The notes under the pieces are model-generated. The model was not told where the DNA came from and ran no database searches. It saw nothing but the letters and a program-made list of their open reading frames with translations. A stretch of 12,905 nucleotides of DNA from Candidatus Poribacteria bacterium. Its GTDB lineage: Bacteria > Poribacteria > DTPJ01 > WJIO01. Where the stretch lies: NCBI GenBank assembly GCA_014730235.1, contig WJIO01000072.1, forward strand, positions 1 to 12,905. The letters are read 5' to 3'. A program made the translations under genes and the position numbers. Below, one piece after another: positions 1 through 12,800 of this stretch (its first letter is position 1; every line of letters starts with the position of its first letter).

Positions 1-28
1 GCATAAATTTTATGTCCGTGAAAACTTT

Positions 29-211
29 GGTTCTTCCGGTTTGAGTATGGTAATAATTTGAAAATTTTCTCAGCTTGTCATTCCTGCGAAACTCTTATTC
101 CTTTTTGCTCAAGCTTTTTCAAAAAGCTTGAAGCAGGAATGACAAATGGAGGATGTTTTTTTCTTAATTGGACAATGTCTTTTACACTTCCACACTTAAA
201 CTGGATGAACC
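29..211. repeat. MITE-like element, copy A, with 22-bp terminal inverted repeats
   Basis: The left end at 29-50 (starts GGTTCTTCCGG) and the right end at 190-211 (ends GGATGAACC) are reverse complements at 18 of 22 positions. Both are followed outward by an A/T tract (AAAACTTT on the left, AAAAATTTT on the right). The same ends recur at 12650/12769 and in weaker form at 9202/9280, and the left end alone recurs at 4435. A palindrome (75-145) lies inside. There is no room for a transposase, so if mobile it would be non-autonomous. I see no clear target-site duplication. This is read by eye; the family name is unknown. Confidence 0.65.
75..145. repeat. Hairpin core with 13-bp arms inside copy A
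   Basis: The arm TTGTCATTCCTGC (75-87) pairs perfectly with GCAGGAATGACAA (133-145) around a 45-nt core. The core contains its own near-perfect palindrome, CAAGCTTTTT, one C, AAAAAGCTTG (110-130). The same core is present in reverse-complement orientation at 4493-4537, between the same arms. Confidence 0.85.
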
Positions 212-242
212 AAAAATTTTGATACAGACTAAAAACTTTATT

Positions 243-267
243 TGTTACTCCGTTCTTCGCAATAACA
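243..267. repeat. Short palindromic repeat of a second type
   Basis: TGTTA at 243-247 pairs with TAACA at 263-267. Read on the minus strand the segment resembles a repeat I remember as TGTCATTGCGAGGAACGGAG, common in several bacterial genomes. It lies just outside copy A. Further out, 1-12 and 276-287 form a perfect 12-bp inverted repeat (GCATAAATTTTA), so 1-287 may be one composite element whose left edge is at or beyond the window start. Confidence 0.45.
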
Positions 268-302
268 CAGGGATGTAAAATTTATGCTTGGAATTTTCAT
301 TA

Positions 303-331: not shown

Positions 332-366
332 CTTTCTTGAAAAAATCGTCTTTAAAACACATACAC

Positions 367-372
367 AGGAGG
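367..372 (+). promoter_or_regulatory. Ribosome binding site that fixes the GH36 start
   Basis: AGGAGG with a 6-nt spacer before ATG 379. The frame is open from a TTG at 337, but that codon would include the ribosome binding site in the coding region and falls at the predicted transcription start. 379 is therefore the better start. Confidence 0.85.
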
Positions 373-378
373 TTAATC

Positions 379-2433
379 ATGGCTGAGGTTCCGGATATGG
401 ATTATGAAATAATTGATCTTCTGCCGGATCACCTGGAAGAAAGTGGTCGGGTAACATGGGAAGAGATGAACACAACTCAAAACTGGGCAGAATTATTGAC
501 GGATAGCAAGGAGGAATATATTGAAAATTGGTTAAAAACCGGTCCACCCTTCAGTTTTTTGTATTCTGGAAAAGAGTCCGGTGAAATTTTGAAAAACTTT
601 AACCTCCAGATCGGTAAGAAATACGATAATAAAAATGTTACATATCAGGATTTTGTATGGCTGGATGTGGATACTGGTCTGCAAATAACAATGAAAACGA
701 AAATGTTTAAAGGTTATCCGGCCGTTGATTGGGTTATAGAAATTGAAAACACAGGATCGACTGATACACCCCTGATTGAGGGATTTAATGCCCTTGATAT
801 TAAACAGAAATCCTCCGGAAAAACCCTCTCATACGGTGTTTTTAACAGGGAAAATGTACCGTATAAAATACACGGTGTAACAGGAGGTCGCAGCTTTGCA
901 GATGATATGATTCCCTTTACCTGGGAGCTACCTTCCAGGGAAATAGGCAACAGCGTTACCCTGGGTGGTGATCATCCATCCAGCAACAGGCATATGCCGT
1001 TTTTTAATATAGAATCACCGGAAAATCGCGGGATGATCGTGGGCGTGGGCTGGTCAGGAAACTGGATCGCCAACCTATCTGTTGAAGACCATGAACTCAC
1101 CACTGAGGTTGGTTTAAAAGGCAACCGTTTTATACTGCATCCAGAAGAAAAAATCCGCACAGCCCGGATACTTTTGCTTTTCTGGAAGGGAAAAAGGCTT
1201 CATGGACAAAATATGTTCCGGCACTTGCTTCATAAACATTATGTTCCACAACTTAACGACGAACCACAGAAGCCGCTGGTATCAGTAAACGTATGCTTTA
1301 CCCATCACGGCCGGGGTGGATTCTTACATCAGGCTACTGAAAAAGAAGTGCTGTCAATTGTCCAGCCTTTTATTGAAATAGGTTCAGAGCTTTTCATTAT
1401 AGACGCGGGATGGTATGACGGCGCACCCTGGCAAAATTGGCTTGGTAACTGGAAATACTCAAAGGAAAAATATCCCCGGGGATTTAAACCCATATCCGAA
1501 CCTTTGGAAAAAGGAAACGTCGCTTTCGGTCTATGGTTTGCCTCTGAAAACGTAAGCGGTAACGCCCCTATAATGAAAGAGCATCCCGAATGGGTTCGCA
1601 ATGGCACGCTCAGGATGGATATTCCGGAAGCCCGGGAGTGGTTCCTGAAACAGGTGGAATACATGATTAGGAACGAAGGCATGGACTGTTTCCGTCAGGA
1701 TGGCTCTGGTGAATACGGGGAAGATTCAGAAGATCGTAAGGGCATTAACGAAAGCAAGCACATCCAGGGCTTATACAAACTGTGGGATACTTTACTGGAA
1801 AGACATCCAGACCTGATTATGGAAGGTTGTTCCGGCGGCGGAAGGCGCATTGATCTTGAAACTTTATCTCGCTTTCACTGGCATCAGAAATCCGACAGGT
1901 GGTATGATTCTGAAAGCGATCAATGCAGTCTCTACGGTGCAAATTTGTTTCTCCCCGGCAGCGTGATCAACATACCTACAGAAAGAACCGACGATTACGG
2001 CGCATGGTCCAGCTTCGCCGGTCAGTTCAGCCTGGGATGGCATCCCCTGGACGATGATTTCCCGATGGATAAAGCCAAAAAGCAGGTTGAGTTGTATAAG
2101 CAGATACGTCATCTGCTAATCGGCGATTTTTACCCGTTGACGCCGTGTTCTATGAATCAGACATGGATCGGATACCAGTTCCACCGAAATGATCTGAACA
2201 CCGGTCTTGTCCTTATATATCGTCGCCCTGCAGCTGAGGACGCAGTATATCCCGTAGGTGATAGCTTTAAAGCATATCTAAGGGGTGTTGATCCGGGTGT
2301 GAAATACAGGGTAACGCTGGAACGCAGTGGAAAAAGCGGTGAATATACAGGTTCAGAGCTAAACAGCGGTCTGGAAATCACCATCGCTGAAACAGAAGGT
2401 GTTGAACTCATACGATATGAACCGGCAGATTAA
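379..2433 (+). CDS. GH36 family alpha-galactosidase-like glycoside hydrolase
   Basis: A 684-residue retaining alpha-glycosidase of the GH36/melibiase type, expected to release terminal alpha-galactosyl (or alpha-GalNAc-like) residues. An N-terminal beta-sandwich covers roughly residues 1-290, a TIM barrel about 300-610, and a small C-terminal beta domain follows. Family landmarks are DAGWYDG (342-348), LWFASE, the EGCSGGGRRIDLE stretch (482-494), nucleophile candidate D441 in FRQDGSG, and acid/base candidate D506 in KSDRW. There is no signal peptide, so it is probably cytoplasmic and acts on imported oligosaccharides. It is odd that the nucleophile sits in RQDGSG rather than the usual KWD(x)N, so sugar specificity may differ from classic alpha-galactosidases. 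It is the first gene of an operon: the next start is 12 nt after its stop. The fold is secure; the substrate is not. Confidence 0.88.
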   Translation: MAEVPDMDYEIIDLLPDHLEESGRVTWEEMNTTQNWAELLTDSKEEYIENWLKTGPPFSFLYSGKESGEILKNFNLQIGKKYDNKNVTYQDFVWLDVDTGLQITMKTKMFKGYPAVDWVIEIENTGSTDTPLIEGFNALDIKQKSSGKTLSYGVFNRENVPYKIHGVTGGRSFADDMIPFTWELPSREIGNSVTLGGDHPSSNRHMPFFNIESPENRGMIVGVGWSGNWIANLSVEDHELTTEVGLKGNRFILHPEEKIRTARILLLFWKGKRLHGQNMFRHLLHKHYVPQLNDEPQKPLVSVNVCFTHHGRGGFLHQATEKEVLSIVQPFIEIGSELFIIDAGWYDGAPWQNWLGNWKYSKEKYPRGFKPISEPLEKGNVAFGLWFASENVSGNAPIMKEHPEWVRNGTLRMDIPEAREWFLKQVEYMIRNEGMDCFRQDGSGEYGEDSEDRKGINESKHIQGLYKLWDTLLERHPDLIMEGCSGGGRRIDLETLSRFHWHQKSDRWYDSESDQCSLYGANLFLPGSVINIPTERTDDYGAWSSFAGQFSLGWHPLDDDFPMDKAKKQVELYKQIRHLLIGDFYPLTPCSMNQTWIGYQFHRNDLNTGLVLIYRRPAAEDAVYPVGDSFKAYLRGVDPGVKYRVTLERSGKSGEYTGSELNSGLEITIAETEGVELIRYEPAD

Positions 2434-2445
2434 GAGGTAATAATA

Positions 2446-3174
2446 ATGGATAACAAGCTTTCCCGGGATGTTCAGATGCAGTTCATGCGTCCCGGTCAGC
2501 TAGATTCAGCTATCAGGGATTTTCCGGTGGTTTATGTACCTTTTGGATTGATAGAATGGCATGGAAAGCATCTTCCGTTAGGTAATGATGCAATTAAAGC
2601 CCATGCAATACTGGTAAAATGCGCGGAGGAATTCGGCGGAGTGGTGTATCCTCCCCAGTGGCTTCACAACGGTTTTAATCAGGATCATCTTGTTCCTATC
2701 TACACTGAACTATTTGAACGTTTAAAAAGGACAGGATTTCGGGTAATTATAGGTGTTTCCGGGCATAATGTAAAAGAGCAGATACACATGATTAACAATG
2801 CCCTGAAACCTGTTATCGCCGATGGAACGGCAGCGGGAATCGGTCTGTGGGAAATGACCTTAAGTCAGGGAGAAGAATCCAACAGTGACCACGCAGCCAA
2901 GTGGGAGACTTCCAACATGATGTTCTTCTACCCCGACCGGGTGGACATGTCCGAATTAGGAAATGAAGAGATAATACTGGACATGCGTGCCCCCTGGGGC
3001 ATTGGAGGTCTTGATCCCAGAACCCACGCATCGGTGGAAGTGGGTAAACGCAACGTTGAGCTGGCATCCAAAGCCATAGGCGAGAAGGCCCGGGAACTGC
3101 TGAATTCCCTGAGGCCTGAAAACAGAAGTATGGGTATAGAAAAAATCGAACCGGGACACTGGTGGTTGATATAA
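2446..3174 (+). CDS. Creatininase-family metal-dependent hydrolase
   Basis: 242 residues, the usual size for the creatinine amidohydrolase fold. These enzymes use two divalent metals to open cyclic amides or related C-N bonds. Signature I is EWHGKHLPLGND, giving ligand candidates E37, H39 and D48. Signature II is SGHN with H107, shorter than the common GHGGN. Signature III is DHAAKWETS with H149 and E154. The start at 2446 has AGAGG at 2433-2437, partly using the stop of the GH36 gene, so the two are likely translationally coupled. The gene lies in a sugar operon, so creatinine is an unlikely substrate. A lactam, lactone or N-acyl sugar derivative is more plausible (inference). Other family members are FAPy deformylases and MftE-like peptidases, and nothing here marks either. 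Cytoplasmic; no signal peptide. Confidence 0.85.
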   Translation: MDNKLSRDVQMQFMRPGQLDSAIRDFPVVYVPFGLIEWHGKHLPLGNDAIKAHAILVKCAEEFGGVVYPPQWLHNGFNQDHLVPIYTELFERLKRTGFRVIIGVSGHNVKEQIHMINNALKPVIADGTAAGIGLWEMTLSQGEESNSDHAAKWETSNMMFFYPDRVDMSELGNEEIILDMRAPWGIGGLDPRTHASVEVGKRNVELASKAIGEKARELLNSLRPENRSMGIEKIEPGHWWLI

Positions 3175-3190
3175 TTAAAGAGGTGCAGAT

Positions 3191-4420
3191 ATGGCAGAAA
3201 AGTTTGATATATTGCTTAAAGACGGACACGTTATTGACCCGGCCAACGACATTGACAGCAAAGTGGATGTGGCCATCAAGGATAAGAAGATAGCAAAGGT
3301 AGAAGCTGATATTCCGGAATCAGAAGCGTCACAATCAATTGATGTTTCTGATCACTATGTAACACCGGGTATTATTGACATTCACACCCATGTATACACA
3401 TTACCTCCCGGCGCAGGATATTACGTCATGAGTGTGAATGCAGATGCCCATTTCTTTGCATCCGGCGTTACAACTACTGTTGACGCAGGTACGGTGGGAT
3501 GGTGGCATTTTGCGGATTTTAAGAAAAGCTGTATGGATGCAGCAAGAGTAAGGATACTGGCTCTTGTAAACATTGCCAGCGGTGGTATGGTGCAGACTTC
3601 CACAGAGCAGGATCCCAAGGAGATGCACCCAAAGATGTCAGCGGCTGTAGTTGAAGCCTATCCCGATGTGGTAATAGGCATAAAAGCCGCTCATTACTGG
3701 ACGCAAAAGCCCTGGGATGATGAACATCCACCCTGGGCATCGGTGGAAAATGCAGTAGAAGCCGGAGAGATATGCGGCAAGCCGGTCATGGTTGACTTCT
3801 GGCCCCGACCGCCGGAAAGGCCTTATCCTGACCTTATTCTGGAAAAACTGCGTCCCGGTGATATGCACACCCATGTATTCGCCCGGCAGTTCCCTATTAT
3901 AACAGACGACGGCAAAGTTTATGATTACATGTACCAGGCCAGAGATAGAGGCGTTATCTTTGATCTGGGTCATGGCGCAGGAAGTTTCTGGTTCCGCAAC
4001 GCATATCGGGCCCTGGAAAATGGTTTCGCTCCTGATTCCATAAGCACAGACCTGCATATGGGAAACATAAATGGGCCGGTGGTGAGTATGATAAATACCA
4101 TGTCCAAGTATCTAAGCATGGGTATGCCGGTGCAGGATGTCATCAAGCTGTCAACAGTAAACCCGGCAAAAGAGATCGGTCATCCTGAATTAGGCACTTT
4201 AAGCGTAGGCGCAGAGGCTGATGTGGCTGTGCTGGAACACCTGAAAGGCAAATTTGGCTTTGCCGACTGTGGTAAAGCAAAACTGACTGGCTCAGATAAG
4301 CTGGAATGTGTCATGACGATCAGGGCAGGTGACATTGTTTATGATCCAACAGGCATGAGTATGCCGGAATGGGTTGATGCCCCTGAACCTTATTGGGAAA
4401 TTCCTGATCTACAGAAATGA
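3191..4420 (+). CDS. COG3964-type amidohydrolase/deacetylase (EF_0837/Atu3266-like)
   Basis: A 409-residue amidohydrolase-superfamily TIM barrel flanked by the small beta domain that begins KDGHVIDPAND. Metal-centre residues are all visible: H65 and H67 in PGIIDIHTHV, likely carboxylated K165 in GIKAAHYW, histidines at 226/228 (DMHTHVF) and 261 (DLGHGAG), and D287 in STDLHMGN. The best match from memory is the group annotated as dihydroorotase-like, EF_0837 or Atu3266; characterised members remove acetyl groups from alpha-acetoxy acids such as acetyl-(R)-mandelate. In other bacteria this family is often next to a DgaE/SelA-like PLP gene, as here (4600). The start at 3191 follows AAAGAGGTG (3177-3185), 16 nt after the creatininase stop, so it is the third gene of the operon. 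Natural substrate unknown; an acylated sugar acid would fit the neighbourhood. Confidence 0.85.
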   Translation: MAEKFDILLKDGHVIDPANDIDSKVDVAIKDKKIAKVEADIPESEASQSIDVSDHYVTPGIIDIHTHVYTLPPGAGYYVMSVNADAHFFASGVTTTVDAGTVGWWHFADFKKSCMDAARVRILALVNIASGGMVQTSTEQDPKEMHPKMSAAVVEAYPDVVIGIKAAHYWTQKPWDDEHPPWASVENAVEAGEICGKPVMVDFWPRPPERPYPDLILEKLRPGDMHTHVFARQFPIITDDGKVYDYMYQARDRGVIFDLGHGAGSFWFRNAYRALENGFAPDSISTDLHMGNINGPVVSMINTMSKYLSMGMPVQDVIKLSTVNPAKEIGHPELGTLSVGAEADVAVLEHLKGKFGFADCGKAKLTGSDKLECVMTIRAGDIVYDPTGMSMPEWVDAPEPYWEIPDLQK

Positions 4421-4434
4421 TTTTTTACAATTAC

Positions 4435-4549
4435 GGCTCTTCCGGGTTTAGTATTGTTATAATTAAAAATTCTCTCAGCTTGTCATTCCTGCTTCAAGCT
4501 TTTTGAAAAACCTTGAGCAAAAAGGAATAAAAGTTTTGCAGGAATGACA
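4435..4549. repeat. MITE-like element, copy B, one-ended, with inverted core
   Basis: The left end at 4435-4456 matches the left end of copy A at 18 of 22 positions, in the same orientation, and the similarity runs through the A/T stretch up to TCTCAGC. Then TTGTCATTCCTGC (4480-4492) and GCAGGAATGACA (4538-4549) bracket a 45-nt core (4493-4537). That core equals the reverse complement of the copy A core at 42 of 45 positions. No right terminal repeat is seen; 4550-4599 leads into the next gene. A weak TTGCAG (4536-4541), 18 nt, TATTTA (4560-4565) could let the repeat supply a -35 box to the gene at 4600. Confidence 0.75.
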
Positions 4550-4599
4550 TAAGTGATGTTATTTAGCGATTAAACCAATTAGTTAAGTTAGGAGATGAA

Positions 4600-5721
4600 A
4601 TGGATGTATATGATGATTTGGGAATAAGGAAAGTTATTAACGGTCTTGCAACGGTAACTACCCTGGGTGGTTCTATAATTCCGCCAGAAGTTATGGGAGC
4701 TATGGCAGAAGCAGCCCGTTATTTTGTGGATGTAGACGAACTACAGCATAAAATTGGCGAGAGAATAGCCCAGTGGACACATAACGAAGCCGCTTATATA
4801 TGCTGTGGAGCCGCCGCTGGAATTGCCGTTGCAACAGCTGCTTGCATCGCTGGAACAGACCCGGCCAAAAGCAGTCGTTTGCCCCATACTGAGGGCATGA
4901 AAAATCAGGTTATCGTCCATAAGCATGGTCGCGTAGGTTTTGATTATTCCATCAAACAGGCCGGGGGCGTATTGGTGGAGATCGGTGATGAAACAGGCAC
5001 TACCGTTGAGGATATGGAAAAAGCCATCAACGAAAAAACCGCCGCCATATTTTATTTTTACAGACCCCATGTTATGGAACTTCAGCTTCCCCTGGACAAG
5101 GGAATCCAGGTGGCAAAGAAATATGATATACCGGTAGTTGTGGACGCAGCAGCCCAGATTCCTCCGGTGGAAAACCTCTGGTGGTATACCCAGCAGGGGG
5201 CGGATCTTGCCATATTCAGCGGTGGAAAGGGTTTGCGTGGACCTCAGAGCAGCGGTCTTATTGTAGGAAGGAAAGACCTGATTGACGCCTGCGCGTTTAA
5301 TTCGTGTCCCAGAATATCCATAGGCCGTCCTATGAAAGTAGGAAAGGAAGAGATGGTAGGCCTTATGGCTGCAGTTAAACGATACCTGAACCTGGATCAT
5401 AAAAAGCTTATGCAGACCTACGAGGATCAGGTTCAGTATATAAGGGACGCGTTTAAGGATATGGAACATGTATCCACAAAACGAAATTTCCCCAGCGAAG
5501 CTGGCCAACCCATGCCAAGAGCAGAATTGATTTTTGATGAAGAAAAACTGGGCAAAACCAGAAATGATATACTCCGGGAGTTAAGGGAGGGTGAACCCTC
5601 AATAGCTCTTGCCGGGGCTGGTAATAACGGCATATATGTCAATCCACAAACCCTTGAACCCGGTCAGGAGGAGATTATTGTCCGAAGAATAAAGGAAATA
5701 ATTCAGGAGATTACATCATGA
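4600..5721 (+). CDS. SelA/DgaE-like PLP-dependent enzyme
   Basis: 373 residues of the fold-type I PLP family related to selenocysteine synthase SelA and to DgaE, the D-glucosaminate-6-phosphate ammonia-lyase. The Schiff-base lysine is K210 in FSGGKGLRGPQSSG, the pyridine-N aspartate is D182 in VVVDAAAQIPP, and a phosphate-binding segment is near CCGAAAG (68-74). DgaE-type enzymes remove ammonia from a 2-amino-2-deoxy sugar acid to give a 2-keto-3-deoxy acid. SelA itself is unlikely: the protein is shorter and sits in a catabolic operon. The start at 4600 follows AGGAG (4590-4594). Its stop overlaps the next start by 4 bp (ATGA, 5718-5721). An EF_0837-like amidohydrolase upstream and a DgaE-like enzyme is a pairing known in other bacteria, but the DgaF aldolase usually seen with it is absent. 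The exact reaction is inferred. Confidence 0.82.
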   Translation: MDVYDDLGIRKVINGLATVTTLGGSIIPPEVMGAMAEAARYFVDVDELQHKIGERIAQWTHNEAAYICCGAAAGIAVATAACIAGTDPAKSSRLPHTEGMKNQVIVHKHGRVGFDYSIKQAGGVLVEIGDETGTTVEDMEKAINEKTAAIFYFYRPHVMELQLPLDKGIQVAKKYDIPVVVDAAAQIPPVENLWWYTQQGADLAIFSGGKGLRGPQSSGLIVGRKDLIDACAFNSCPRISIGRPMKVGKEEMVGLMAAVKRYLNLDHKKLMQTYEDQVQYIRDAFKDMEHVSTKRNFPSEAGQPMPRAELIFDEEKLGKTRNDILRELREGEPSIALAGAGNNGIYVNPQTLEPGQEEIIVRRIKEIIQEITS

Positions 5722-6713
5722 ATAAATATCGTGTCGGAGTTATCGGATGTGGAGGTATAGGTACAAGACATGCTTCCGGTCTGGTAGGGCTGGAAAATGC
5801 AGAATTTGTAGCAGCTTGTGATATATCGGAAAAGACCTTAAACAGCTTCAATGATAGATGGGCCGACACCTGGCCCAATATTTCCCTTTATAATGACTAT
5901 CGGGAAATGCTGGACAAAGAAAACCTGGATGTGGTTACAGTCGCCACACCGGACCATCTGCATACAGAACCGGTGGTAGATTCAGCTAACTCAGGCGTAA
6001 AAGGCATATTCTGTGAAAAACCTATGGCCACAAGCCTGGAAGACGCAGACCGGATGATGCAAGCTGTAGAGAAGAATAAAACTATACTCTCCATTGACCA
6101 TACCCGGAGATGGCAACCCCTGTGGAGACATATTAAAGAGGATTTAGTCAATGGTGGAAACATTGGTGAACTCAAATATATAGTAGGCACTTTGAGCGGC
6201 AGGCGCGCGTCCATTTTCCGTAATGGCACTCATTTGATTGATGCCATGATATATATTGCCCAGAGTGAACCCGAATGGGTCTTTGCTGAGTTGGAAGAAG
6301 GCTATGAAGATTATGTTGAATATAAAGGTGATGGCGGATATGACCCAACCCTTGAGCCTTCAGCCAGCGGGTATATCCATTTTAAAAATGGTGTCAGGGG
6401 ATTCTACACAGGTACATCAAAGCAGACTCCTGCACCTAAATGGCGCTTTGAAGTGGTGGGAAGTGAAGCATATATAAACGTTTCCGACGAACCGGTTATA
6501 TACAGGAAAGGAAAGCCCGAACCCATAATCCCGCCAGTTTGGGATGTAGAAGGAATACCCGCCGGTGCTCAGGAGTTAATAGAATTGATCGATGTAGGTG
6601 GCGAACCCCAATCACCGGCAATAGATGCCTATAACGTCGTTCAGGTTATATTTGGTTTCTTTGAATCCCAGCAAAAGGGAAATGTAAGGGTAAATCTACC
6701 TCTTTCCAGATAA
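5718..6713 (+). CDS. Gfo/Idh/MocA-family NAD(P)-dependent oxidoreductase
   Basis: 331 residues. The N-terminal Rossmann domain has GCGGIG (10-15) and the family EKP motif at 100-102 (K101 is the conserved lysine). The C-terminal alpha/beta domain has H172 in NGTHLID at the usual catalytic-histidine position. These enzymes oxidise or reduce a sugar, inositol or sugar-acid hydroxyl using bound NAD(P). DHTRRW (127-132) replaces the more usual NRRF-like segment. It is not GH109, since the GxxHxxHC hallmark is missing. It is translationally coupled to the PLP gene through the ATGA overlap, with AGGAG(A) at 5705-5710, so both probably act in one pathway. Substrate not deducible; an aldose or amino-aldose giving a lactone is the natural guess here. 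Confidence 0.88.
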   Translation: MNKYRVGVIGCGGIGTRHASGLVGLENAEFVAACDISEKTLNSFNDRWADTWPNISLYNDYREMLDKENLDVVTVATPDHLHTEPVVDSANSGVKGIFCEKPMATSLEDADRMMQAVEKNKTILSIDHTRRWQPLWRHIKEDLVNGGNIGELKYIVGTLSGRRASIFRNGTHLIDAMIYIAQSEPEWVFAELEEGYEDYVEYKGDGGYDPTLEPSASGYIHFKNGVRGFYTGTSKQTPAPKWRFEVVGSEAYINVSDEPVIYRKGKPEPIIPPVWDVEGIPAGAQELIELIDVGGEPQSPAIDAYNVVQVIFGFFESQQKGNVRVNLPLSR

Positions 6714-6727
6714 TCAGGAGTATAAAA

Positions 6728-7173
6728 CTGAAAAAAGTAAAAATCAAAATCGGGAAGATCATTCTTTTTATATCATTAATCTTTGTCATCCTGAGCTTTT
6801 TTACGTGTTCCCGGAAAGGGCTTATTGAAGAAAAATATCCCTTTTCTATAAACATAAAGTGCCTCTTATTCTAAGCAGTCATGAGCATCTTTACGAAAAT
6901 AACATAATTCGTAACGGTGGAGAGAATGGGAAAATTCATATAATAGTTACCGGAGGCGGAGGCGCGCCTCTGCGGGATGCTACATCTCAGGATAAAATTC
7001 AGGAGTATTTAAATGATTACAAAACAGAAGGATTTGAGGTAATACCTTGCCAGAAAATCATATATCACTACTGCCACGTAAAAATAAATTCTGATGAAAT
7101 TCATATAAGGGTCAATAAAATAACCGATAAATCAAAATCCACAGAAACTGCCGAAGAGATATTTATAAGATAG
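6728..7173 (+). pseudogene. Remnant of a calcineurin-like metallophosphatase lipoprotein (internal deletion plus frameshift)
   Basis: Two fragments in different frames. Fragment 1 begins at a CTG (6728) with AGGAG at 6716-6720. It encodes a basic start, a hydrophobic stretch (about IILFISLIFVILSFF) and a cysteine followed by SRKG, i.e. a signal peptide or imperfect lipoprotein signal, and ends at TAA 6872-6874. Fragment 2 is open from 6829 to TAG 7171-7173 and reads FYKHKVPLILSSHEHLYENN, then IHIIVTGGGGAPL. Those are the C-terminal HxH metal motif and the glycine-rich motif of purple-acid/calcineurin-type phosphatases. The first ~200 residues of the catalytic domain, with the DxH, GDxxD and GNHD motifs, are missing. 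The frames would join if the A tract at 6831-6835 were read one base longer, so slippage could give a ~147-residue product, but it could not be a working phosphatase. It lies 14 nt after the oxidoreductase, as if once in the operon. Confidence 0.7.
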
Positions 7174-7296
7174 TAATCGTTAAAAAATGGATATAATTTA
7201 GTTGTCATTCCTGCTTTAGCAGGAATGACAAATTTTGTAATTTACCATAATTATAAAGGTATTTTCTAAACACATTTTTCATTTTTTAACGATTAC
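7173..7296. repeat. 124-bp MITE-like element with perfect 17-bp terminal inverted repeats
   Basis: GTAATCGTTAAAAAATG (7173-7189) and its exact reverse complement (7280-7296) bracket 90 nt. Inside is a perfect hairpin with arms TTGTCATTCCTGCT (7202-7215) and AGCAGGAATGACAA (7218-7231). The terminal repeats differ from those of copies A, B, D and E, but the hairpin arms are the same. The element fills the gap between two convergent coding regions and could act as a bidirectional terminator (inference). It holds no open frame of note. Confidence 0.75.
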
Positions 7297-7303
7297 AAGA
7301 TAA

Positions 7304-9157
7304 CTAAATATTCCATAGCAACTTTATACGGGCACTGGAGTAACTTTCAAGAACATTCTCTCCTGTCGAACATTTATGCCACCATATATCTGCATACCTG
7401 CCGTCTTCCACTTTCAATGTATCCAAGTTATATTTATGCCAGGGTGATAATTTAACATTTGTGGTATAACGATAGCGATTGCCGTCGGGCTTAAATAATT
7501 CAAGATAAGAGACATTCAGACAGCCATCATCACAAGCATGAACCAGCATCTTGAAACTCCGACCTGCGGTTGTTTTTCCCACTACCACAGCATAATTCAG
7601 TAGTTTAGAGGAAACAGGACGCGTGTTCAGGGTTATCCTTCTGATTTGGTATAAATCCAGATCTGCAAAGTCAAAGGCGATATATATACCGGCCCTGTTT
7701 CGGGGAACCAGATTATTATTACCAAGAATTGAAGACTGCCACCAGAAATCAGCGTCCATACTGGTTTCCCTGCCGCTGTCCAGATCGCAGAGGTAATTTT
7801 TCCTTATAATCAGGGATTCTCTTTCCAGATGCACGCTTCCATCTTCATTATAAACCCGAATATTTTTCAAAAGCAGATTTTCTCCCGCATATGCTTCGCA
7901 TACAGCATAACGTCCATGAGAAGTGCGCATGAAAAGCACAGCCGCACCCAGCTTATCCCGGCTGATCTTTCCTGTTTCATAAGGGGCCTGCCTGAGACTG
8001 CGTGAAAGAGTATTACCATTTTTCTCCGGTAATACACTGTCCACCACAAAACCGTATTTAAAGCACGATCTGGCCAGGTTATAATGTAAATAGGCATATC
8101 CATTGTGTCCCCAACCCCTTCCCCAGCTATTTTTTACAATAAAATACTGCTCAAGACTATTGTAACCCACAAGCAGCATGGCATGTCCACCCAGACCCAG
8201 TGGTTTACCATTGGAAGCCAGAACCGGATCCAGGATGCCGTCGTTGTCCTTATCATCCCATGACACCCACGTACCGATAACGATGTTATAACCCTTTTGC
8301 AGAAGCGATTCCAGGTATTTGGTGTTTTTGATGCTTTCACCTTCCAACCCCCTATCGGTTATAATTTTGTAAGCATTCGGCATGTAACCATATATGGTCT
8401 TCTCCTCATATCCCCGGGGAGGAGCATAAGTTTTATTCTTAACCATCTGGTTAATGGTATATTGGCTTGTTATGTATGGCCAGTGCTTCTCTTCACATAC
8501 TTTACCATCCGAGCGGGATAAAAGCTTTGCGGCGTCTGTGGTTCTCAGACCGCTGTTATAGTTGTGAGGTCGGTTCATGAATTCGTTGAATTTGTAATGG
8601 GCGCATTGTTCCGAAAGGTCGTCAGGTATATGGTCAAAGGATTCCATAAGACCCAATGACGCATGAGCCACGCATGTTCCACGATAGCCCTGGTTTTTCA
8701 CTGAGGACTGGGAAGGTCTGTGATCTACTATTGGTGGAAGAGGGGAAAGATCATTTTCGGATTCTGATTCATCAGAAGATATTTCATCAACTTCGTAATA
8801 CGGCATAAGGTCTCTGGTTTTTTCATCAACTATCTTTGCCGCGTCTTTATCATATTCCATTTCCTCTGGCTCATAATCAAACTCATCAGCCGGTATAAGG
8901 GGAACTTCAGATATTTCAATTTCTTCTTTTTCCGGCTGGCTGCAATCCAATGATGTATCAGCTTCATATTCCTGACCGGCTTTATCAATATCCAGCTTCC
9001 CGGCCAGGGCTTTATCAGATTTCCTGAAGATGCGAAATACAATATTCCCATCTTTGTTTGTAAAACGCTCGTTTATTTCATCATCACTAAGCTTTTTGGC
9101 TTTTGATGTTATTGCCTTTTTCTGTTTATCTGTCAGCGTTTCCCAGGGTTCACTCAT
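7304..9157 (-). CDS. Papain-family (C1A) cysteine protease with acidic N-terminal region and duplicated C-terminal domain
   Basis: 617 residues. Catalytic residues are in order: Q156 in VKNQGYRGTC, nucleophile C162, H325 in GGHAMLLVGY and N343 in VKNSWGRGWG. The preceding ~140 residues are very rich in Asp and Glu (about 75-135) and probably form a pro-region or linker. No signal peptide or membrane segment is seen at the start. The start at 9157 has AGGAG 8 to 9 nt upstream on the minus strand. A DKDNDGILD loop (302-310) between the Cys and His parts looks like a calcium-binding insertion. The C-terminal 230 residues contain two related ~85-residue repeats (about 403-488 and 520-607), each with LxxAV, a DG turn (439-440, 558-559) and a (D)A-D-[FI]-WW motif (469-473, 589-593). 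It stands alone and opposite in strand to the sugar operons. Physiological substrate unknown. Confidence 0.87.
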   Translation of the reverse strand: MSEPWETLTDKQKKAITSKAKKLSDDEINERFTNKDGNIVFRIFRKSDKALAGKLDIDKAGQEYEADTSLDCSQPEKEEIEISEVPLIPADEFDYEPEEMEYDKDAAKIVDEKTRDLMPYYEVDEISSDESESENDLSPLPPIVDHRPSQSSVKNQGYRGTCVAHASLGLMESFDHIPDDLSEQCAHYKFNEFMNRPHNYNSGLRTTDAAKLLSRSDGKVCEEKHWPYITSQYTINQMVKNKTYAPPRGYEEKTIYGYMPNAYKIITDRGLEGESIKNTKYLESLLQKGYNIVIGTWVSWDDKDNDGILDPVLASNGKPLGLGGHAMLLVGYNSLEQYFIVKNSWGRGWGHNGYAYLHYNLARSCFKYGFVVDSVLPEKNGNTLSRSLRQAPYETGKISRDKLGAAVLFMRTSHGRYAVCEAYAGENLLLKNIRVYNEDGSVHLERESLIIRKNYLCDLDSGRETSMDADFWWQSSILGNNNLVPRNRAGIYIAFDFADLDLYQIRRITLNTRPVSSKLLNYAVVVGKTTAGRSFKMLVHACDDGCLNVSYLELFKPDGNRYRYTTNVKLSPWHKYNLDTLKVEDGRYADIWWHKCSTGENVLESYSSARIKLLWNI

Positions 9158-9201
9158 ATCAATGTCTCCTGTGCAAATTTTATAATGTATTTAATTTATC
9201 A

Positions 9202-9280
9202 GTTCTTCTGACTTGAGTGTGGAAATGAAAATAAAATTGTCTAAACAACTGAAAATTTCACCACTTAAACCTGAATAAAC
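9202..9280. repeat. MITE-like element, copy D, short and degenerate
   Basis: GTTCTTCTGACTTGAGTGTGG in two parts (GTTCTTCTGAC at 9202-9212, TTGAGTGTGG at 9213-9222) resembles the left end of copy A. The stretch ending at 9280 (CCACTTAAACCTGAATAAAC, 9261-9280) resembles its right end. The TTGTCATTCCTGC hairpin is missing, leaving about 38 nt between the ends. It lies 44 nt and more upstream of the protease start and may overlap that gene's promoter. The terminal repeats pair only with a gap, so this copy is less certain than A or E. Confidence 0.45.
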
Positions 9281-9288
9281 AATCTGCC

Positions 9289-9316
9289 TGTCATTATAAG
9301 CAGAATGAAGAATCTC
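9289..9316. repeat. Degenerate short palindromic repeat
   Basis: TGTCATTATAAGCAGAATGA followed by AGAATCTC resembles the dispersed bacterial repeat I remember as TGTCATTCTGAGCGGAGCGAAGAATCTC. It is imperfect and could be chance. The rest of 9158-9367, between the divergent genes, shows nothing else I can name. Confidence 0.3.
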
Positions 9317-9367
9317 ATTTCCATTGATACTTATCTATGGTAAAGGGTCAAAATGTGAACATGGCTC

Positions 9368-9396
9368 TTGATCTCCCAGGAAAACATACTTATAAT
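9368..9396 (+). promoter_or_regulatory. Sigma-70-like promoter for the amidohydrolase pair
   Basis: TTGATC (9368-9373), a 17-nt spacer and a consensus TATAAT (9391-9396). Transcription would start near 9403, just before the ribosome binding site at 9406, so the leader is very short. The -35 box coincides with a TTG that could open the frame earlier, which argues that the TTG is not the start codon. Confidence 0.65.
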
Positions 9397-9405
9397 ATCT
9401 CAGCG

Positions 9406-9411
9406 AAAGGA
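9406..9411 (+). promoter_or_regulatory. Ribosome binding site that fixes the first amidohydrolase start
   Basis: AAAGGA with a 7-nt spacer before ATG 9419. From this ATG the protein begins MIIDSHIHI, which is the normal N-terminus of the family. The 17 extra residues from the TTG at 9368 look like non-coding sequence. Confidence 0.75.
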
Positions 9412-9418
9412 AACAAAT

Positions 9419-10162
9419 ATGATAATAGATTCCCACATTCACATCACCCACACAGAGCCTATAGAAAACCTTCTGGAACATGCCGATATATCAGGAGTAG
9501 AAAAACTTATTGTTTCATCCCTGGGCGTAAGGGGATACATAAGCTATCCCACAGTTGAGGAAGTCAGAGGGGCCAATGATCTGGTTATAGATGCAGTAAA
9601 CAGCTTTCCGGATCGGGTTATAGGAATTTGCTATGTCAACCCAAGGCATTATCAGGAATCCCAGGAAGAACTTAAAAGATGTATAGCAGGGGGGCCTATG
9701 GTAGGAATAAAGCTGTGGATAGCCGCAAAAGCCAGCGAAATCTGCGTTGAACCCATAGCAGAGAAGGCAGTAGAACTGGACGTCCCTATACTACAACACG
9801 CATGGAACAAGACCACAGGAAACATGGAGGACGAATCCAACACAGAGGATGTGGCAGAACTTGCCCGTAAATATCCCGAACTCAGGCTTCATATGGCCCA
9901 TCTATACGGCGCAGGATTTAATGGTATAGCCCGGATCGCACCATACCCCAATATTTATGTTGATACTGGAGGAGGAGAACCAGAAGCAGGTATACTTGAA
10001 CACGCCGTTAAGAATCTAGGAGCAGAACGTATATTATTTGGTTCTGATGCTCCCGGCAGAGGCTTTGACGTCCAGTTAGGAAAGGTATTAGGAGCTGATA
10101 TTCCTGAACAGACAAAGCAAAAGATTTTACATATAAACACTGCAAAGGTTTATAAATTATGA
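9419..10162 (+). CDS. Amidohydrolase-2 family metal-dependent hydrolase (lactonase/decarboxylase type)
   Basis: 247 residues, a compact TIM barrel of the PF04909 type. Characterised relatives include 2-pyrone-4,6-dicarboxylate lactonase, aldonolactonases and ACMS decarboxylase. The metal site is complete: H6 and H8 in DSHIHI, K98 in GIKLW, H127 in LQHAW, H158 and H161 in RLHMAHLYG, and D210 in FGSDAPG. It is the first gene of a two-gene operon with its own strong promoter, and its stop overlaps the next start by 4 bp (ATGA, 10159-10162). In this neighbourhood lactonase activity on a sugar lactone is the most economical idea, but sequence alone does not separate lactonase, decarboxylase and hydratase. 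No signal peptide. Confidence 0.85.
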   Translation: MIIDSHIHITHTEPIENLLEHADISGVEKLIVSSLGVRGYISYPTVEEVRGANDLVIDAVNSFPDRVIGICYVNPRHYQESQEELKRCIAGGPMVGIKLWIAAKASEICVEPIAEKAVELDVPILQHAWNKTTGNMEDESNTEDVAELARKYPELRLHMAHLYGAGFNGIARIAPYPNIYVDTGGGEPEAGILEHAVKNLGAERILFGSDAPGRGFDVQLGKVLGADIPEQTKQKILHINTAKVYKL

Positions 10163-10935
10163 TTGATATAAATACATACACAGGTAGCTGGCCCTACCGC
10201 CCGTTAAAATATTCTCGGCTAACTGATTTACAACAAATGCTTAACTCCCATGGCATACAGAAGGCTTTGGTTTCGCCAATAGAAGGTATGTTCTATGACG
10301 ATCCCCAGCTTGCTAACGAAGAGCTTTACAAAGCTATAAAAAAATCACACCAGCTTTTGCCGGTAGCTGTAATTGACCCCAGCATGACAAATTGGTCCCA
10401 GAGTATGGAAAAATGCTTTATTGAGATGAAATTCATCGCTTTGAAGCTGCATCCGAACTATCATGGTTACAGCTTATCCCATGATAGCGTATACCAAATG
10501 CTCGAGCTGGCTGGTCAGACGAATAAGCCGGTTATAATACAGATGCGAATACAGGATATTAGAGCACAAAGCGATTTGGCAAGAGCAGAAGATGTAAGTA
10601 TTCAACAGGTGATCGGAGTTGTCCGGGATCATCCAAACACCGGATTCATACTTGGTGGTATAAAATGGGTAGAAGCCGCAGTATCATCTCAGGATATAAA
10701 AGAACTGGAAAACCTGTGGCTGGATATATCAAACCTTGAATACATGGGTGGTCTGAGACGCATGATCCAGTTATACGGCCCGCAAAAACTGGTTTTTGGA
10801 ACTCATGCCCCCTTCTTTGTTGTCAGGTCAGCCATCCTTAAGCTTCAGGCTGCCGGTCTGTCAGAAGAGGAAAGAAAAAATATAACAATAGGCAACGCTC
10901 AAACGGTCTTAAAAAACATGCTTATTCAGGTTTAA
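10159..10935 (+). CDS. Amidohydrolase-2 homologue lacking metal ligands
   Basis: 258 residues with the same fold and size as the gene before it, which it overlaps by 4 bp. Each metal-ligand position is changed: HxH becomes N5-T-Y7 (MIDINTYTG), the QHxW histidine becomes M129 (IIQMR), HxxH becomes L165-G-G-I168 (FILGGI), and FGSD becomes FGTH (H216). The scaffold is retained: LKLHPN with K96, the IIQ strand, the DISN segment and FGTHAPF. The frame is intact and full length, so it is not a pseudogene. Most likely it is a non-catalytic partner or pseudoenzyme of the upstream protein, or a metal-independent enzyme. A weak AAGG lies at 10145-10148, so translational coupling is likely. Confidence 0.8.
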   Translation: MIDINTYTGSWPYRPLKYSRLTDLQQMLNSHGIQKALVSPIEGMFYDDPQLANEELYKAIKKSHQLLPVAVIDPSMTNWSQSMEKCFIEMKFIALKLHPNYHGYSLSHDSVYQMLELAGQTNKPVIIQMRIQDIRAQSDLARAEDVSIQQVIGVVRDHPNTGFILGGIKWVEAAVSSQDIKELENLWLDISNLEYMGGLRRMIQLYGPQKLVFGTHAPFFVVRSAILKLQAAGLSEEERKNITIGNAQTVLKNMLIQV

Positions 10936-10960
10936 ATGGGGAAATAATTTGATAGTTTTC

Positions 10961-11045
10961 CAGACATGTCATTCCTGCGAAGGCAGGAATCCAAAACTTG
11001 TGATGATACTCCTGGATTCCTGCCTTCGCAGGAATGACATGTTTG
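10961..11045. repeat. Long perfect hairpin (30-bp arms, 19-nt loop)
   Basis: Arms at 10964-10993 and 11013-11042 are exact reverse complements, and pairing extends 3 more positions outward with one G-T wobble. Each arm contains ATTCCTGCGAAGGCAGGAAT-type sequence, so each arm can also fold on itself. This is the widely dispersed CATTCCTGCGAAGGCAGGAATCC repeat family. It lies 28 nt after the stop of the amidohydrolase pair and 100 nt before the GH4 start. There is no U tract, so intrinsic termination is doubtful; RNA stabilisation is possible. Confidence 0.85.
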
Positions 11046-11132
11046 TGTGATTTGGATTTATTGAAAAAACCTCAAAGCTAATGTTAATTATGATTTTGTA
11101 TTGAAGATAAATGTAAATAGTTAAACTTATTT

Positions 11133-11136
11133 GGAG
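11133..11136 (+). promoter_or_regulatory. Ribosome binding site that fixes the GH4 start
   Basis: GGAG with a 9-nt spacer before ATG 11146. The frame is open from TTG 11131, but that codon overlaps the ribosome binding site. From 11146 the protein starts MNKKIVCLGGGSW, the normal dinucleotide-binding N-terminus. I see only weak promoter candidates between the hairpin and this gene. Confidence 0.75.
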
Positions 11137-11145
11137 ATATTAAAA

Positions 11146-12519
11146 ATGAACAAAAAAATTGTATGCTTAGGTGGCGGAAGCTGGTATTTTACCAGGGCTT
11201 TAGGCGATATGGTGGTCATGGAAGGACTGAAGGGAAGCGAGATAGCCCTTTATGATATTGATTATGAAAAATGCCAGGTCATGGCAAAACACGGCGCAAG
11301 GCTGGCCGAGGAAAGCGGAACAGGTATGAAGGTCAGAGCTTGTAAAGATCTTGCAGAGGCTCTGGACGGCGCGGACTTCGCCGTTTCGTCCATCGGTGGT
11401 TCCGGCGCGTCTGTGGGCGGTGTATACGGCACAAGCTATCATATACAGGACATGATAATCCCTGCCCGTTACGGCATATACCAGATCATCGGTGATACCA
11501 CAGGCCCGGCTGGTATGATGATGGGTCTGCGTAGTGTGCGTATATACGTTGATATATGCCATGAAATGGAGAAGCGCTGTCCCAATGTGGTGTTTCTGAA
11601 CCATTCAAATCCTATGGCCGTATTGTGCAGGGCCATGAAGAAGTATACAGACATTGAAAACATTGTGGGTATATGTCATGGCGTCCAGGGGGGTATTATG
11701 GGGGTGGCAAAAATACTGGACGTTTCCCCTCATGATCTGGATACTGTTTGGATCGGCACAAACCATTATTACTGGTTTACCCGTATGTGCAACCGGCAGG
11801 GGAAAGACCTGTATCCTGAATTCTGGCAGAAGGTGAAAGAGCGGGGCCCGGTGCCGGGGCAGATCATGACCCACAAGCTGTCGCAGATATACGGATACCA
11901 GATAACATATCCCCCTGATGATCATGTCATCGAGTTTTACCAGTTCCCGGCCCAGATTAAAAGCAGGGATGATATCCCCTACGGCCTTCTGGATCATGTT
12001 CACGGCACAAACTACGAAAAGCTGGAACTGCAAGAACATCCTGAACTCTCAGAGGCACAGAAAAAGGAGATGCGCCAGAAGCAGTTAAAAGATATGACCG
12101 AAGGACTGGCAAAGGTCAATCTGCCCGATGGGCCCTCTGATCCGCTTACAGGCGAGGGGCTTGGTAAGCTTATTGAAAACATAGCCCTGGGTAAGAGACA
12201 GGTGCATATCGTAAACATTCCTAACAAGGGGTCAGTGCCAAACCTGCCGGAACATGCTATCCTGGAAGTGGAAGGCGTTACCGATGCCTGCGGTGTCAGG
12301 GGATTATACATGGACAAAGCACCTGTATGGCTAAAGGGATTCCTGGAAAAGCGCATAGCGTGGCAGGAACTGGTGGCTGACGCAGGCGTAAAGGCCGATA
12401 AGAATCTGGCTTTACAGGCCTTACTGCTGGACGAAATGGCCATCCCGCCGGAGAAGTCCGAGACCATGCTGGATGAGCTTCTGGCGGCGTCAAAGGCTAT
12501 GCTGCCTCAATTTGATTAA
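11146..12519 (+). CDS. GH4 family NAD+/Mn2+-dependent glycosidase, alpha-glucuronidase/galacturonidase-like
   Basis: 457 residues, typical for GH4. These enzymes cleave glycosides by transient oxidation at C3 with bound NAD+ and a divalent metal. The N-terminal Rossmann motif is VCLGGGSWYFT. Other landmarks are GDTTGPAG, NHSNPM (152-157), and metal ligand candidates C177 (GICHGVQ) and H207 (GTNHYYW). The residues after the metal-binding cysteine define subgroups. As I recall, CHEV marks alpha-glucosidases, CHSV alpha-galactosidases, CDMP and CNVP the 6-phospho-glycosidases, and CHGx alpha-glucuronidases. CHGV here points to a non-phosphorylated uronic acid glycoside such as alpha-galacturonide (LplD-like), but this is a motif-level argument. 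Monocistronic in this window, with hairpin repeats on both sides. Confidence 0.9.
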   Translation: MNKKIVCLGGGSWYFTRALGDMVVMEGLKGSEIALYDIDYEKCQVMAKHGARLAEESGTGMKVRACKDLAEALDGADFAVSSIGGSGASVGGVYGTSYHIQDMIIPARYGIYQIIGDTTGPAGMMMGLRSVRIYVDICHEMEKRCPNVVFLNHSNPMAVLCRAMKKYTDIENIVGICHGVQGGIMGVAKILDVSPHDLDTVWIGTNHYYWFTRMCNRQGKDLYPEFWQKVKERGPVPGQIMTHKLSQIYGYQITYPPDDHVIEFYQFPAQIKSRDDIPYGLLDHVHGTNYEKLELQEHPELSEAQKKEMRQKQLKDMTEGLAKVNLPDGPSDPLTGEGLGKLIENIALGKRQVHIVNIPNKGSVPNLPEHAILEVEGVTDACGVRGLYMDKAPVWLKGFLEKRIAWQELVADAGVKADKNLALQALLLDEMAIPPEKSETMLDELLAASKAMLPQFD

Positions 12520-12572: not shown

Positions 12573-12649
12573 ATGAGTAAGAATAGGAGCCAAGATTTAA
12601 TAAATTATACTTTTCACACTAAAATGTTTTTTTTAGACATCCGATTTCT

Positions 12650-12769
12650 GGCTCTCCCGGGTTTGGTATGGCAATAATTTGAAAATTTTCTCGGCTTGTT
12701 ATTGCCGCGCAGGCAGGAATGACAGTATAAAGGGTTTCTTATCTTTGCCACACTGAACCAGGAAGAACC
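12650..12769. repeat. MITE-like element, copy E, with 22-bp terminal inverted repeats
   Basis: The left end 12650-12671 (starts GGCTCTCCCGG) and right end 12748-12769 (ends GGAAGAACC) pair at 16 of 22 positions. Each matches the ends of copy A (right end versus A left end, 18 of 22). After the left end the A/T stretch TAATTTGAAAATTTTCTC is nearly the same as in copy A. The internal hairpin is shortened and decayed (TTGTTATTGCC and GGCAGGAATGACA around a few bases, about 12697-12724) and the 45-nt core is gone. The rest of 12520-12905 has no gene that I can see. Confidence 0.6.
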
Positions 12770-12800
12770 TAAAAATTTAAGAATATGGCTTTTTATATAT

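Follow-up and report, generated by a model that had tools for sequence, protein, structure and literature searches.

How does one 45-nt segment come to lie in opposite directions between the same palindromic arms at two places in one contig? The window, 12,905 nt long, is one entire contig (C437) from an assembly of 5.5 Mb, which comprises 451 contigs. In copy A, the left arm (TTGTCATTCCTGC, 75–87, plus strand) and the right arm (GCAGGAATGACA(A), 133–145, plus strand) enclose a core at 88–132 on the plus strand (forward reading GAAACTCTTATTCCTTTTTGCTCAAGCTTTTTCAAAAAGCTTGAA). In copy B, the left arm (TTGTCATTCCTGC, 4480–4492, plus strand) and the right arm (GCAGGAATGACA, 4538–4549, plus strand) enclose a core of the same length at 4493–4537 that reads forward on the minus strand. 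The two cores agree at 42 of 45 positions when one is reverse-complemented and at 13 of 45 when they are compared directly. They are not palindromes, because core A matches its own reverse complement at only 14 of 45 positions and core B at 12 of 45. The best 45-nt match to core A in the rest of the window, on either strand, was core B with its 42 positions; the next best outside the neighbourhood of A had 27 and overlapped B, and the highest value in 20,000 shuffles was 26. The left flanks of the two copies match in the same orientation (28 of 30 positions, 58–87 versus 4463–4492), and the profile of the MITE end that we call S matches the left flank of both at E = 3.4e-12. The sequence-only reading of this DNA had claimed that a common core is flipped between common arms, that the left flank keeps its orientation and that the reversal is confined to the segment between the arms; all of this holds, and further loci in the genome show both directions.

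The surroundings of the two copies

Copy A is the centre of a MITE that runs from an S end to an E5 end (29–211, plus strand; terminus GGTTCTTCCGG.../...CTGGATGAACC). The HMM matches to these ends lie at 28–75 for S (E = 3.4e-12) and at 204–145 for E5 (E = 1.2e-17), and the element is bordered by a near target duplication, AAAACTTT (21–28) and AAAAATTT (212–219). In copy B the S end occupies 4435–4479 on the plus strand (HMM match 4435–4480, E = 3.4e-12), and the right end (4550–4577, plus strand), which was aligned to the M end, is too decayed for assignment. We considered reading it as a decayed M end and rejected this, the alignment score being 8 against a shuffle mean of 6.1, with 233 of 2000 shuffles scoring as high. 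As the outer half is common to S and M ends, the likeness of the left flanks might itself have been an illusion created by terminal inverted repeats; this was also rejected, B scoring 46 bits with the S profile and 15 bits with that of M. The right flanks differ, that of A being of the E5 type and that of B unrecognisable, which means that the two copies do not represent alternative states of a single element. Each is a 69-nt single unit; they point in opposite directions and belong to two related MITE subfamilies.

The window holds other elements of the same kind. Positions 1–291 (plus strand) belong to an outer MITE, 'X', with the terminal inverted repeat CCAAGCATAAATTTTATGTCC...; its left end is cut by the contig start, the inverted pair being 1–20/268–287, and in other genomic copies the ends are complete (CCAAGCATAAA.../...TTTATGCTTGG). 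This stretch is nested, with a REP unit in an S-E5 MITE in an outer MITE (TIR CCAAGCATAAATTTTATG). Another MITE family, with the TIR GTAATCGTTAAAAAATG, is represented at 7168–7307 on the plus strand (HMM matches E7 7168–7202 and E6 7289–7232) and is centred on a plain 28-nt REP hairpin (7203–7230; −12.3 kcal/mol, z = −8.2). An inverted REP pair of the 72-nt doublet class (inverted pair I2) lies in a decayed MITE at 10967–11039 on the plus strand and folds at −33 kcal/mol (z = −12.4). An S-M MITE at 12649–12770 on the plus strand (HMM S 12649–12692, M 12770–12727) carries a plain 28-nt REP hairpin at 12697–12724. A decayed MITE-like remnant at 9200–9290 gave a weak N-end match (E = 0.02) and has no central REP hairpin. 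An Rfam search of the window gave no matches.

The core is the expanded loop of a REP unit

A core seed, CTTTTTGCTCAAG, had 128 matches in the genome at up to one mismatch, about 94 of them exact, against 10 for the backwards control. About 1.3 Mb containing most of these copies was taken, flank profiles were built and 240 paired elements were parsed. The sample was thus picked for copies of the core instead of at random from the genome, and elements with other centres are those that fell within the fetched stretches. Since the outer flanks are MITE terminal inverted repeats, flank likeness alone cannot fix the orientation of a copy, and the S, M, E5 and other ends were therefore separated before orientation was tabulated. 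The flip persists after this sorting.

The flanks proved to be MITE ends, from several families. The family with S and M ends is the largest; it has the TIR GGTTCTTCCGGGTT and 8-bp target duplications, which are perfect (8/8) in many copies. The centres of the elements have discrete lengths of 28, 49, 69, 72 and 113 nt. A centre of 28 nt consists of one REP hairpin, of the published CGTC/TGTC class, laid out as TGTC followed by an 8-bp stem, ATTCCTGC/GCAGGAAT, with GAAA as the normal loop; among the arms, TGTCATTCCTGC is the commonest reading. Two such units in inverted orientation make up the 72-nt centre. In the 69-nt centre, that of copies A and B, a single REP has the 45-nt core as its loop in place of the usual 4 nt, and the 113-nt centre pairs a long-looped unit with a second unit in inverted orientation, the long-looped one adjoining either of the two MITE ends. 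At 49 nt, the centre is a near-perfect palindrome made of the right half of the 69-nt unit and its own mirror image. Doublets have CCAG...CTGG between their two inverted units, and single units outnumber doublets in the sample. Core A contains a 10-bp hairpin of its own (CAAGCTTTTT-C-AAAAAGCTTG), and the DNA fold of the whole unit (75–145) has z = −6.3.

The 45-nt loop is present in several unrelated MITE families. The core had no matches in 38 related genomes, nor, searched as exact patterns, in a species-genome collection or in viral contigs, and a literature search with the sequence GTCATTCCCGC found nothing. The plain REP unit with its CCAG tail is widespread, occurring in Nitrospirae, Deltaproteobacteria, Rickettsia, Planctomycetes, Omnitrophota and others.

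Direction of the core across the genome

When core orientation was tabulated over all copies, as the sequence-only reading had proposed, both directions were found, and the outcome that all other copies share one orientation did not occur. Read from the S end, the core is reverse in 21 and forward in 11 S-M elements. The S-E5 elements, read in the same way, have 15 forward and one reverse, and at the E3 end the ratio is 11:1. Perfect 8-bp target duplications surround both reverse elements (e.g., AAATGTTT and CAAAATTT) and forward elements (e.g., ACAAAACT and ATATTTAA). On a tree of the S and M flanks (95 columns), the direction changes nine times, against a mean of 9.4 when directions are shuffled, with 253 of 500 shuffles as low; the well-supported (starred) branches of the S-M flank tree force two changes. 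Direction is mixed in S-M elements but almost fixed in the young families, indicating that the reversal is real and repeated but not rapid.

The cleanest flip is an S-E5 element at C232:5787 (L090), whose core, once reverse-complemented, is identical to core A and to the cores of eight other forward S-E5 copies, and lies between arms of 12 bp. Its left flank is identical at 72 of 73 positions to that of C53:10131 and at 68 of 73 to that of A, and its E5 flank at 27 of 27 positions to that of C311:6076 and at 26 of 27 to that of A. The junction between reversed core and E5 end occurs once in the genome; the normal type of joint between core and E5 has several dozen matches, some of them from 49-nt centres. 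The strongest flip on the flank tree, at L112:3894, looks more like a recombinant of two families than a simple inversion.

The pairs show how much is turned. In 10 of the 11 S-M core doublets inspected, the spacer of the pair is turned together with the core, which means that the reversal extends over everything between the outer arms. One doublet (L153:6092) has only its spacer turned, and the S-E5 group has spacers of opposite direction (L142:10214 and L129:2488). We also considered the direction of the loop in 28-nt hairpins, most of which have a 4-nt loop of GAAA, AAAA, TTTC or TTTT, as a proof of inversion; the GAAA/TTTC argument was rejected because the loss of either half of an inverted pair yields either loop.

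How the two directions may have arisen

Among the causes that the sequence-only reading had offered, the evidence most favours the class of recombination or strand switching at the arms. Within it, template switching (or conversion) at the palindromic arms is the best explanation of both core directions, and we regard it as rather probable. The 45-nt loop would have arisen when the loop of a REP hairpin grew, once, from 4 nt, giving a unit that begins and ends with the same inverted arms of 12–15 nt. A copying strand could then leave its template in one arm and re-anneal to the opposite strand at the same site, which would invert the inner segment, or re-anneal to another copy, which would swap the contents. 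Such a process would be blind to direction, as the arms look alike from both sides. Slippage between the direct repeats ATTCCTGC or GCAGGAAT within a pair would trim a 113-nt centre to 69 nt and a 72-nt centre to 28 nt. We infer from a comparison of many copies within one genome how the copying works and which way the trimming ran.

Template switching between short inverted arms has been reported to homogenise the arms and to invert the spacer, with inversions seen only where the arms exceed 9 bp (PMC8604942); the arms here have 12–13 bp, and the spacer at C232 is exactly reversed. Three S-M elements (L083:14584, L097:14690 and L149:5120) have identical 48+48-nt flanks around three different centres, namely 113 nt reverse, 69 nt reverse and 49 nt. 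The difference between 113 and 69 is 44 nt, exactly one slip between the ATTCCTGC repeats, and the 49-nt palindrome would be the expected product of arm copying on a 69-nt unit. Over all centres, both arms of one element carry the same variant nine times, against 0.7 expected and a maximum of five in 2000 shuffles, which fits arm copying; all of this signal stems from centres of 28, 49 and 72 nt, and arm-matched variants number 0 among 36 variants in the 69- and 113-nt centres.

Presumably the 45-nt loop originated once; as it occurs in MITE families unrelated to one another, copies must also exchange it. A strand that re-anneals at an arm of its own site or of another copy would account for both the in-place inversion and this transfer. 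A broader reading, which we put forward only tentatively, is that the MITE centre is an exchangeable cassette site, where REP units of several kinds are swapped and turned genome-wide by way of their palindromic arms, quickly enough to make the centre and its direction nearly independent of the flanks.

The main rival is that REP pairs are mobile miniature elements, similar to REPINs, which inserted independently and both ways into the tips of MITE hairpins. REP doublets that form hairpins are known miniature mobile DNA (PMC3116915), REP dimers lie within larger palindromes in Anabaena variabilis and Halothiobacillus neapolitanus (PMC3733652), and the spread of the 45-nt loop over several unrelated MITE families would be understandable if it arrived by insertion. 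However, all S-M elements have the unit flush at one and the same position, and the S-M elements of the sample that were classed as empty include no intact unoccupied S/M joint, being deletions or short-end variants. Moreover, the arms showed no shared target duplication, and these REPs do not flank the sole Y1 transposase that was found. We consider independent insertion of REP pairs unlikely. The core as an insertion sequence in its own right was not our first choice either, and it is disfavoured because the junctions nearly always lie within the REP arms.

A more improbable rival is that crossovers between MITE copies at their shared centre re-sorted the halves, with the core moving along with one of them and the unit itself never being inverted. 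Chimeric end pairs do exist (e.g., S-E3, S-E4 and E7-M), and S-E3, S-E4 and E3-M elements are without 8-bp target duplications; the element at L112:3894 has its left half and core from the S-E5 group and its right half from a different group. Crossing over of this kind should also have produced S-S and M-M elements, but only three and four of these were found against 112 S-M, a shortage that may also reflect the loss of unstable long palindromes. The element at C232 retains both its S and its E5 flank with the core reversed. Two further chimeras, L078:5674 and L100:12292, have an S end joined to an E3 end at a TCATTT microhomology and lack a hairpin centre.

An artefact of short-read assembly, with different copies fused across the 69-nt repeat, is very improbable. 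The assembly is fragmented into its 451 contigs, and several of them end within the core (C175, C176, C337 and C346); nevertheless, joints from S to core recur in both directions inside long contigs, in elements with 8-bp duplications. Arms of 12 nt are also shorter than any usual assembly word, so arm-spanning joints should have been present in the reads.

That the segment is an enzyme-driven invertible switch (inverton) turning a neighbouring gene on or off is scarcely credible, for although inverted arms do surround a short intergenic segment and the core is antisense to transcription at 23 of 32 loci between same-strand genes (L061–L156; p = 0.02, one of several tests and uncorrected), direction is almost fixed in the young families, no promoter-like site above chance lies in the core, well over a hundred copies are dispersed in the genome and, among the genes of the window, none was recognised as a recombinase.

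Gene context and function

A small phase switch, as the sequence-only reading had suggested, is not supported, given the 15:1 and 11:1 directions of the S-E5 and E3 groups and a consensus promoter scan that gave matches at chance level and none in the core. The sole match at copy B is on the minus strand, lies in the arm and the S flank, and has a counterpart at A. The gene neighbourhood at 337–12519 resembles one for carbohydrate and amide breakdown, with melibiase-like, creatininase-like, amidohydrolase, DgaE-like ammonia lyase, Gfo/Idh/MocA oxidoreductase and family 4 glycosidase genes, and with a papain-type protease on the minus strand among them.

Comparison with known systems

The units resemble the CGTC-1 REPs, which include dRS3 of Neisseria and RPE-6 of Rickettsia (PMC3733652). 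Those have a terminal CGTC, often TGTC, an 8-bp stem starting with AT, a 4-nt loop and a CCA tail, and form inverted dimers without a dedicated transposase, some of them within larger palindromes. The 28-nt units here have the CGTC/TGTC terminus and the AT-starting 8-bp stem, and most of them have the 4-nt loop as well, whereas the long-loop unit (45 nt) departs from it and is a variant. Two differences from the CGTC-1 REPs are that one unit of a pair has a 45-nt loop with an inner hairpin and that the carriers are MITEs with target duplications. REPINs are likewise inverted REP doublets with a spacer that form one long hairpin (PMC3116915); here, however, the REP sequence is another one and the units are nested in MITEs instead of being free. 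A RAYT flanked by these REPs was not found; the genome has one Y1_Tnp gene (C236), with neither TGTCATT nor CATTCCTGC in the 3.4 kb around it. Like other bacterial MITEs (70–300 bp, non-coding, with terminal inverted repeats and target duplications), the outer S-M element has a TIR and an 8-bp target duplication, but its centre is filled by REP units. Three partial ISL3 transposase matches are present in the genome, and matching ends were not seen in short stretches around them.

Small hairpin-loop inversions in chloroplast DNA are a parallel, and most descriptions of inverted spacers at short hairpins come from chloroplast DNA, birds and yeast genes. In the present genome, from a bacterium, more than 100 copies of one hairpin occur in both directions between recognisable flanks, together with likely trimming intermediates, and a comparison of strains could measure the rates of inversion, arm copying and slippage. 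The hairpin repeat reads as a case of repeat evolution and not as a regulatory finding, and it cautions that an inverted segment between palindromic arms need not be a switch. Its nearest counterpart in process is spacer inversion by intermolecular template switching (PMC8604942), where a segment between short inverted arms is likewise reversed, repeatedly and reversibly, with the arms unchanged or homogenised; the present case differs in that the segments are at least 45 nt long and belong to a dispersed bacterial repeat, and in that it was read from many copies in one genome instead of from orthologous loci.
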